This document shows positions 1 through 8,277 of a stretch of DNA of 39,208 bases, piece by piece; within the stretch, counting starts at the first letter, position 1, and each line of letters opens with the position of its first letter. Both the position numbers and the translations under genes were made by a program. The notes below the pieces were generated by a model, which saw nothing but the letters and a program-made list of their open reading frames with translations, ran no database searches and was not told where the DNA came from. Location of the stretch: assembly GCA_018816335.1 (NCBI GenBank), contig JAHIVP010000018.1:1-39208 (forward strand). The letters are read 5' to 3'. The stretch comes from Nanobdellota archaeon. GTDB taxonomy: Archaea > Nanobdellota > Nanobdellia > Pacearchaeales > GW2011-AR1.

Positions 1-84
1 CCATCGCATCTTGAAATTGAAAATTTCAATCTCATTCAAAATCCATAAAAGATTTTGAAGATAATGGTATTGCATCTGGCTTGA
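1..84 (+). pseudogene. Duplicated tRNA-Ser 5' half (truncated by window edge) with a 53-nt insertion in the D-loop
   Basis: CCATCGCAT (1-9) + AATGGTATTGCATCTGGCTTGA (63-84) is identical to 133-163 of the complete tRNA-Ser; 10-62 is an insert of two perfect hairpins; no 3' half (T-arm/acceptor) follows before 129. Confidence 0.7.
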
Positions 85-128
85 TTCAATCAAAAACTTT
101 AAAACCAAACTCTATCTATAATTATTAG

Positions 129-250
129 GCCACCATCGCATAATGGTATTGCATCTGGCTTGAGATGAACCTTTTAGAAAAAGGTTCCCAAAAAATCTAC
201 AAGGAACCAGAGCCCTTCGGGGCATCCCCGTTCGATTCGGGGTGGTGGCG
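129..250 (+). tRNA. tRNA-Ser(UGA), type II, with anticodon-loop intron (~41 nt, about 165-205)
   Basis: Acceptor GCCACCA (129-135) / TGGTGGC (243-249), D stem GCA/TGC, anticodon stem TCTGG (154-158) / CCAGA (207-211), loop C-T-TGA, long variable arm GCCCTTCGGGGC, T arm CCCCG-TTCGATT-CGGGG, discriminator G250. Confidence 0.88.
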
Positions 251-545
251 TTTTCTAAAGGATGTAATCCTTTACGACATCCTCGATGTCGAAATGACTT
301 CCGAATTCTGATTCTCGTTCGGGGAGCGTTTACACGAATTACAAATAATTAAAAATCAATGAGTGTGGGTGCAAGGAGGGGTGGTGGAGTTATAAATGAT
401 AAAAAACTCCAAATCCGCATTCTGCAGGATTTTCCGTAGAAAAATTTTATTAATTGAAAAATATTCTAGAAGTGTTAAGTTGGATATTAGAAAGGGAGAT
501 TAATAGATGAATAAAAAGGGGGGTGTTCTGATTTAGAGATTAATT

Positions 546-2258: not shown

Positions 2259-2363
2259 GCTAGACACCTCTCGGTTTCTAGCTGCTCCCAACCTCGCTCG
2301 TCAGTCATTTGTATCTCCTCGTGAGATTGCTCGTCGTGAAATCACTCGCCTCCAACGGTTCAT

Positions 2364-2408
2364 CAGAAACTTTAGTTTCTGAGTGCCATCAAAATCTAAA
2401 AGATTTTG
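2364..2408. repeat. Tandem pair of perfect hairpins
   Basis: CAGAAACT-TT-AGTTTCTG (2364-2381) and CAAAATCT-AAA-AGATTTTG (2390-2408). Confidence 0.75.
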
Positions 2409-2557
2409 AGGTCTAGCTAACTTCCCTCTATGATTTGGAAAATCTTCGATTTTCATTTCTCTTTTATTATATATCATTTATCTAATTTTTATAGGTGCTA
2501 GACAACCTAAGGTTTTCTAGCGAACTTTCCTCTTTATTTAGTTAAATAGATTTTTAT

Positions 2558-7491: not shown

Positions 7492-8277
7492 ATGGGAGAG
7501 ATTCAAGACAAAAAAAAATCTTCTGAGATTTGTGGAGCAATAATCGGAGATGGTTGGATACAATCTAATGAAAGAGGTTTCTTTCTTGCCGGGGATCCCT
7601 TAGAAGACAAAGATTATTATGATAATCATATCTCTAAAATTTTTAAAGATATTATCTCTCCTGTTAAACCTAAAGAATTTCCATATTGGAAAGTTTATGG
7701 GATTTCATTATATAAAAAAGAATTAATAAAAAAATTAATAAGTCTTGGTCTCCCAAAAGGTAAAAAAGTTAACTCTGCTTTTATTCCTAGATGGATAATG
7801 AAATCTAATAAAACTATTGTTAAGGCGTTTATTAGAGGTTTATTTGATACTGATGGATGTATATTTTTTCAAAAAGATTATACTAAATATGCAAAAGATT
7901 TTAATAAGAAATATCATACAAAAGCGAGAATAAGAATATCAAGCATATCTTTTAATTTAATAGATCAGATTTTTGAATTATTTAATAGATTAAACTATAG
8001 GGTTACTAAAAGAAAGATAAAAAGAGGATTTTCAAATAACCGTAATAATAATGATGTCTATATTTTAGAGATGAATGAGATAAAAGGTATTGACAGATTT
8101 TTTGTGGAATTACAACCTGGCAATCAAAAACATTTAACAAAGTATCGTGTCTGGAAGAAGTTTGGTTTTTGTCCACCCAATACTACTCTCAAACAAAGAA
8201 AGGAAATACTTAAAAATAAGATTAATCCTTATAGATTATATGCGGGGATGCCGGAGCGGTCAAACGGGACAGTTTGA
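7492..8277 (+). CDS. LAGLIDADG-family homing endonuclease-like protein
   Basis: Two LAGLIDADG-like motifs (EICGAIIGDGWI and FIRGLFDTDGCI); 3' end overlaps the tRNA-Leu 5' exon. Confidence 0.85.
   Translation: MGEIQDKKKSSEICGAIIGDGWIQSNERGFFLAGDPLEDKDYYDNHISKIFKDIISPVKPKEFPYWKVYGISLYKKELIKKLISLGLPKGKKVNSAFIPRWIMKSNKTIVKAFIRGLFDTDGCIFFQKDYTKYAKDFNKKYHTKARIRISSISFNLIDQIFELFNRLNYRVTKRKIKRGFSNNRNNNDVYILEMNEIKGIDRFFVELQPGNQKHLTKYRVWKKFGFCPPNTTLKQRKEILKNKINPYRLYAGMPERSNGTV

Follow-up and report, generated by a model that had tools for sequence, protein, structure and literature searches.

The first 132 bases of the window, i.e., of the whole stretch of 39,208 bases analyzed here (contig C28), form a unit, termed X, which on balance probably is a tRNA-end module of a class that recurs in Pacearchaeota, in which short non-coding structured elements would insert into the D-loop or T-loop of a tRNA gene and duplicate the severed end. 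The analysis established how such modules are built, that nearly identical elements accompany different tRNAs, and that X is repeated in tandem. The original prediction had interpreted the start of the window as a filled and an empty insertion site; the underlying observation is real and part of this larger pattern, but the filled/empty-site reading fails. The genome comprises 0.9 Mb in 45 contigs and is 82% complete, and a comparison of ribosomal protein L10 identified Candidatus Pacearchaeota MAGs as nearest named relatives.

Unit X (1-132, like all parts of 1-250 described below on the forward strand) is composed of a 5' tRNA-Ser module and a spacer with a promoter-like box, and it was collapsed by the assembler. 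The letters at 133-163, CCATCGCATAATGGTATTGCATCTGGCTTGA, recur identically at 1-9 and 63-84, where they are split by 53 nt at 10-62, so both copies are found where the original prediction had placed them, and its view of copy 1 as the 5' portion of a tRNA-Ser gene with a hairpin pair in the D-loop holds as well. By comparison of the copies, positions 1-9 represent tRNA-Ser nt 5-13 (nt 1-4 lie on contig C45), and 63-84 are a copy of nt 14-35, i.e., the remaining D-arm and the 5' side of the anticodon arm, as judged from the match to 140-163. This match spans 24 nt when counted from position 61 (61-84 with 140-163; E=7e-7 in about 155 kb of DNA of this genome). The two predicted hairpins of the insert, joined by TCTCA, are both perfect: hairpin 1 (11-29) has 8-bp arms and the loop GAA, and hairpin 2 (35-59) has 9-bp arms and the loop CATAAAA. 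The spacer at 85-128 ends X before the real tRNA and contains a TATA-like box (99-105); on C45, a TTTAAAA box precedes copy 1 with the same spacing to the tRNA start. A promoter function of the box at 99-105 is suggested by its sequence.

Copy 2, which had been taken for an empty sister half, turned out to be a complete, intron-containing tRNA-Ser(UGA) gene (129-250; Rfam tRNA 39.9 bits) whose exons match the intronless tRNA-Ser(UGA) of relatives and whose counterparts there are never interrupted. ARAGORN calls it Pro(TGG) with a misplaced intron. From the comparison with the intronless relatives, the intron of about 41 nt (165-205) is at the canonical position and includes a hairpin at 167-187. 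As a complete tRNA-Ser is present at 129-250, we rejected a split or permuted tRNA; X is devoid of a tRNA 3' half, and splicing out the 53 nt would yield no tRNA. The D-arm is unbroken in the tRNA-Ser genes examined in relatives, and therefore the insert is derived relative to the tRNA, in agreement with the earlier assumption that the uninterrupted tRNA is ancestral. As a separate observation, the introns of several different tRNAs of this genome share the hairpin TGAACCTTT(T)NNNAAAAGGTTCCCAAAA (window 165-195; locus L006 at 7945-7971; L020, L022, and L028). In relatives (L067-L078), this hairpin occurs within tRNA introns (L071, L072, L076) and also outside tRNAs, there several times just upstream of start codons, for example in L067, and it thus looks like a mobile intron hairpin.

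Position 1 of the window is the end of the contig, and copy 1 is truncated solely by this end. Extending copy 1 upstream, as the original prediction had proposed, was possible: a search of the whole genome revealed that the last 132 bases of contig C45 are exactly identical to window 1-132, and C45 extends copy 1 to tRNA nt 1, reading TTAGGCCACCATCGCAT..., with the upstream continuation ...AATTAGGCCACCATCGCAT. Copy 2 is likewise offset from copy 1 by 132. We simulated de Bruijn graphs for the arrangement C45-X^n-C28 with several n and k. With n=0 or 1, no contig break arose, and with n>=2 and k=141 the contigs ended exactly as seen, whereas k=99, 119, and 127 failed to fit the contig ends. The opposite end of the window shares an exact 141-nt overlap with the end of contig C23, which indicates that the word length of the assembler was 141. 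An artefact of assembly at the contig end was rejected, as a genuine tandem would be expected to give just this 132-nt overlap at k=141, as n=0 or 1 would have left the contig unbroken, and in view of the 141-nt overlap with C23. From the 132-nt overlap and the simulation, it follows that X is tandemly repeated in the genome at least twice, or that a strain mixture was assembled in which at least one strain has two copies; the copy number from the assembly is a lower bound (at least two). The join of C45 and C28 is also backed by synteny, as rpl12 lies near the end of C45 and is found directly before tRNA-Ser(UGA) in several relatives.

The sequences flanking the 53 nt are exactly identical to copy 2, and hairpin 2 shows 91% similarity to a dispersed hairpin at window 2389-2409, as would be expected if one of two equal tRNA-Ser halves had recently received a mobile hairpin pair and the other half were the empty site. 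We regard this as highly improbable. In about 155 kb of DNA of this genome, there is no second copy of the 53-nt insert outside X, for which reason we rejected a dispersed repeat, and the X hairpins are not repeated beside other tRNAs in this DNA. When the whole genome was searched with window positions 1-260, X was present nowhere else besides the end of C45. The AT at the insert edge, which had been proposed as a very short target duplication, is a 2-nt microhomology that gives no evidence of a duplication and leaves the exact position of the insert uncertain by 2 nt; any target duplication would thus be 2 nt at most. Copy 2 is a whole tRNA gene and not an equal half, and syntenic filled modules exist in relatives (L087 and L125).

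In L087 (Pacearchaeota ARS1180), the order is rpl10, rpl12, module, and tRNA-Ser(UGA), with one ORF between. The module consists of tRNA nt 1-14, CAGAAATTGAAAATTTCTG, TCTC, a second hairpin, and a strand closing on nt 1-14, and its hairpin 1 has GAAATTGAAAATTTC and the TCTC spacing in common with X, so that hairpin 1 and TCTC of the D-loop insert resemble this syntenic module. L125 (genome G041), also at the rpl12 locus, contains nt 1-13, a hairpin, TCCC, a hairpin, and CAATGGTACTC in an X-like arrangement. An X-like layout of nt 1-13, hairpin, TCYC, and hairpin is thus found upstream of tRNA-Ser(UGA) in both L087 and L125, and L055 (G048) has another D-loop-filled copy upstream of this gene. 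Among 58 tRNA-Ser genes of relatives, 15 are preceded by a 15-nt copy that differs at no more than 3 positions; in 5 of these 15 cases, the copy belongs to a neighboring complete tRNA gene, and L060 is a short remnant without a hairpin module. The comparison with relatives thus sustained the ancestral state of the unbroken tRNA and contradicted the idea that the two copies are an internal control for insertion: as filled modules are already present upstream of tRNA-Ser(UGA) in L087, L125, and L055, the insert predates the tandem repeat. The similar upstream module at the same locus in other Pacearchaeota indicates that the insert was not a recent event in copy 1.

To place X in a genome-wide context, we searched for recurrences of the first 25 nt or the last 28 nt of each tRNA as exact same-strand matches of at least 12 nt up to 600 nt away; the flanks of the remaining tRNAs of that genome served as control. 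The 12-nt cut-off was set after a first look, and the counts at 10-14 nt in the genome of the window agree. The choice of genomes was non-random: G104 and G065 were picked once copies at tRNA-Ser had come to light, with a close rpl12 as a second reason for G065, and G138 was picked for its assembly. With the 29 tRNAs of the genome of the window, the tRNA's own 5' end was found upstream in 4 cases (0.18 expected) and its own 3' end downstream in 8 (0.07 expected); neither 5' ends downstream nor 3' ends upstream were detected among these 29. The 22 tRNAs of G065 gave 2 upstream 5' copies and 4 downstream 3' copies, and the 36 of G104 gave 1 and 14, respectively, plus one 3' copy upstream. In G138, no end copies were found among 21 of its 38 tRNAs. 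The downstream copies are in direct orientation and 11-21 nt long, and in 26 of 27 the copy stops within 0-5 nt of the mature 3' end; the inner break is most often 17 nt from the tRNA end, after T54-T55-C56 (8 of the 27). Upstream copies begin at nt 1, end around nt 13-15, and have lengths of 11-15 nt, mostly 13-15. Copies of 5' ends thus lie upstream and copies of 3' ends downstream, with boundaries at the mature tRNA termini.

The sole exception to the downstream position of 3' copies is L223 (G104, contig C3, around 276457), where a degenerate tRNA-Tyr copy upstream of tRNA-Tyr is interrupted by an inverted G104 element. Two tRNAs have, on their upstream side, degenerate copies of the middle part of the tRNA, including the anticodon arm, beside a GGGTTC/GAACCC hairpin (L025, upstream of position 743; L029, upstream of position 1501).

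These boundaries also bear on a local duplication followed by decay, in which tRNA-Ser would have been partly duplicated, the 5' copy would have become a pseudogene and gained hairpins, and the unit would have expanded by slippage. The perfect tandem copies of X and the presence of other tandem repeats near tRNAs, such as a 69-bp unit in L023, are compatible with this scenario, as is the frequency of hairpins in the noncoding DNA of this genome, where short perfect hairpins with arms of at least 8 bp are about 7-fold enriched (63 versus 9 in one Markov-1 shuffle; the census covered stretches of the genome, and a few overlapping loci were counted twice). Blind duplications should not stop at mature termini, however, which 26 of 27 copies do, nor should they sort 5' pieces upstream and 3' pieces downstream. 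In addition, filled modules recur in other lineages, with three D-loop-filled upstream copies, two of them at the rpl12 locus. We therefore consider duplication and decay unlikely. The enriched noncoding hairpins have loops of 3-4 nt and varying arm sequences. The repeat in L023 (contig C35, about 1950-2140) has three copies, each with a perfect 10-bp hairpin, and follows two tRNA genes and a short ORF.

Between a tRNA and its downstream copy sits a structured element, and these elements are about 40-250 nt long and gene-free. The type A element of this genome (80 nt) is present in five copies that are 96-100% identical and all just 3' of a tRNA (four genes), while types B and C are looser families; a further 5' element is common to three tRNAs (L019, L020, and L022). 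G104 has a different element at nine positions, none of which is more than 250 nt from a tRNA; at eight of these, the element lies downstream of the tRNA and shares its strand. A third type, in G065, was located at four tRNA loci and at two intergenic positions elsewhere. A single element can thus lie beside many different tRNAs, each with its own terminus. The type A, G104, and G065 elements are present as multiple near-identical short non-coding copies per genome, which is not so for the 53-nt insert of X. Near-identity across tRNAs within a genome, combined with different elements in three genera, is a pattern as in mobile elements.

Rfam covariance models gave only tRNA and RNase P as credible matches in eight module-bearing loci, and a known RNA family was rejected for the modules. 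Carriage by viruses was likewise rejected, as neither the exact X pattern nor the exact type A core had a match in viral contigs. Two further repeats were noted. A 166-bp repeat with 99% identity at window 2285-2450 and C45:13705-13870 (intergenic) contains two perfect hairpins and a type-B-like core; the window copy lies upstream of the minus-strand ORF 546-2291, and parts of the repeat recur at six further places. In L030 (contig C23), two copies of a GTCGGGGCAGAAGAATGTTAGGGCATGGGGCTGTAAATGCGTGACCCGC-like direct repeat directly follow tRNA-Leu, about 1.4 kb from a tyrosine recombinase gene.

Many 5' modules are predicted to form hairpins or multi-branched folds in which the 5' strand of the tRNA pairs with a matching antisense strand to close the structure. 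The modules could thus be functional RNA, i.e., leaders or trailers of pre-tRNAs in which the copy of the tRNA end is paired to antisense and acts as a decoy or folding guard for the tRNA end or its processing, with X amplified for dosage. In 15 such 5' modules, which had been delimited by hand and eye, the pairing tracked the module's own tRNA (p=5e-5). In an unselected test, the downstream antisense also tracked the own tRNA in the genome of the window (p=0.0004) and in G104 (p=0.008), and the module is kept upstream of tRNA-Ser(UGA) in several genera. The same downstream test was not significant in G065 or G138, the unselected upstream test over all tRNAs was not significant in any of the four genomes, and the closing stem of X is weak, as 37% of shuffles reach its antisense. 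Selected pairing is thus suggested for the 3' modules but unproven for the 5' modules. Moreover, most tRNA genes do without modules, including all 21 tested in G138, and each genus has element sequences of its own that are nearly the same throughout a genome, as expected for recent mobile copies. In sum, we judge an RNA function to be rather unlikely.

Most likely, the modules arose by insertion of small structured elements that duplicate a tRNA end. A structured element would insert into a tRNA gene at a breakpoint in the D-loop or T-loop and thereby duplicate the severed end, so that the tRNA would stay intact and one fragment would be displaced. The supplied end would be nt 1-14 for a D-loop insertion and nt 57-73 for a T-loop insertion. 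As an insertion within a tRNA would survive only if the severed end is resupplied beside the gene, the copies would be expected to end at mature termini, and as each tRNA keeps its own end, the duplicate would be made at the target and not carried as a fixed att site. X, with the exact mature 5' end (nt 1-13) and two hairpins in the D-loop upstream of the intact tRNA-Ser(UGA), would be an old product of such an insertion at tRNA-Ser that was later copied in tandem, each unit with its promoter-like box. Several findings do not fit well with this explanation. X is atypical in that it retains tRNA nt 14-35 and the promoter-like box and is tandemly repeated, that no other tRNA in the DNA searched is flanked by its hairpins, and that its closing antisense does not surpass shuffled sequences. 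In addition, the length of the duplicated end varies between 11 and 21 nt, unlike a target duplication of fixed length, the G065 element also occurs at two non-tRNA sites, and G104 has one 3' copy upstream.

Transfer RNA genes are classic landing sites of mobile DNA, and in the known cases one fragment is displaced by a large element. Integrases that target tRNAs leave attR-type tRNA fragments, as with PYG1 in Pyrococcus yayanosii, and enclose about 9-23 kb with genes (PMC9897764). The modules described here likewise combine an intact tRNA, its own partial copy, and foreign sequence between them, but they are only about 40-250 nt in size, gene-free, and present at many tRNAs per genome, each with its own end, and they also involve 5' ends. 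Partial tRNA copies beside intact ones are thus already known, and the differences are size, absence of genes, the many tRNAs, their own ends, and the involvement of both ends. An integrase with a fixed att site was rejected, as the tRNAs that neighbor one and the same element are of many kinds and each retains its own end. Tyrosine recombinase genes number 2, 4, 6, and 1 in G000, G065, G104, and G138, respectively, and one chromosomal enzyme of the Xer type is required per genome; the higher numbers in the module-bearing genomes (2, 4, and 6 versus 1) may be a lead, drawn from just four genomes.

Casposases, which are Cas1-type enzymes, also insert at tRNA 3' ends with a target duplication, in this case of 14-15 bp, and the duplication of the Methanosarcina mazei casposon covers only the last 4 bp of the tRNA (PMC6977970). 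The duplications of the modules, in contrast, run from inside the D-loop or T-loop to the mature terminus, and the modules are gene-free. A casposase was rejected, as Cas1 (PF01867) had no match in the four genomes, of which the genome of the window is 82% complete. Repeats of the REP/MITE type are short, non-coding, hairpin-rich, repeated in noncoding DNA, and nearly identical within a genome. The elements have all of this in common with such repeats; they differ in that their position is tied to tRNA ends and the adjoining sequence copies the host tRNA. In split and permuted archaeal tRNA genes, parts are encoded apart, and DPANN hosts are among the known cases (PMC3218864). Parts of tRNAs are encoded apart in the modules as well, but each fragment is accompanied by a complete tRNA, with 5' parts upstream and 3' parts downstream, and no half is missing. 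Open-licence full texts contained nothing matching on tRNA-end repeats or partial tRNAs in Pacearchaeota or DPANN.

It is possible, if somewhat doubtful, that the modules represent an undescribed class of elements in Pacearchaeota that recognizes the D-loop or T-loop of tRNAs and duplicates the terminus in a manner unlike known integrases, giving rise to mirrored arrays of tRNA ends, with the window as a tandem 5' example. In a reduced genome, a third or even more of the tRNA genes can carry gene-free elements, on both sides and in a rule-bound manner, which provides a countable natural experiment on the recognition of tRNA ends at the DNA or RNA level. The modules can account for the breaking of assemblies at tRNA genes in genomes of this kind, and for DPANN archaea they point to an undescribed insertion activity or role of RNA.
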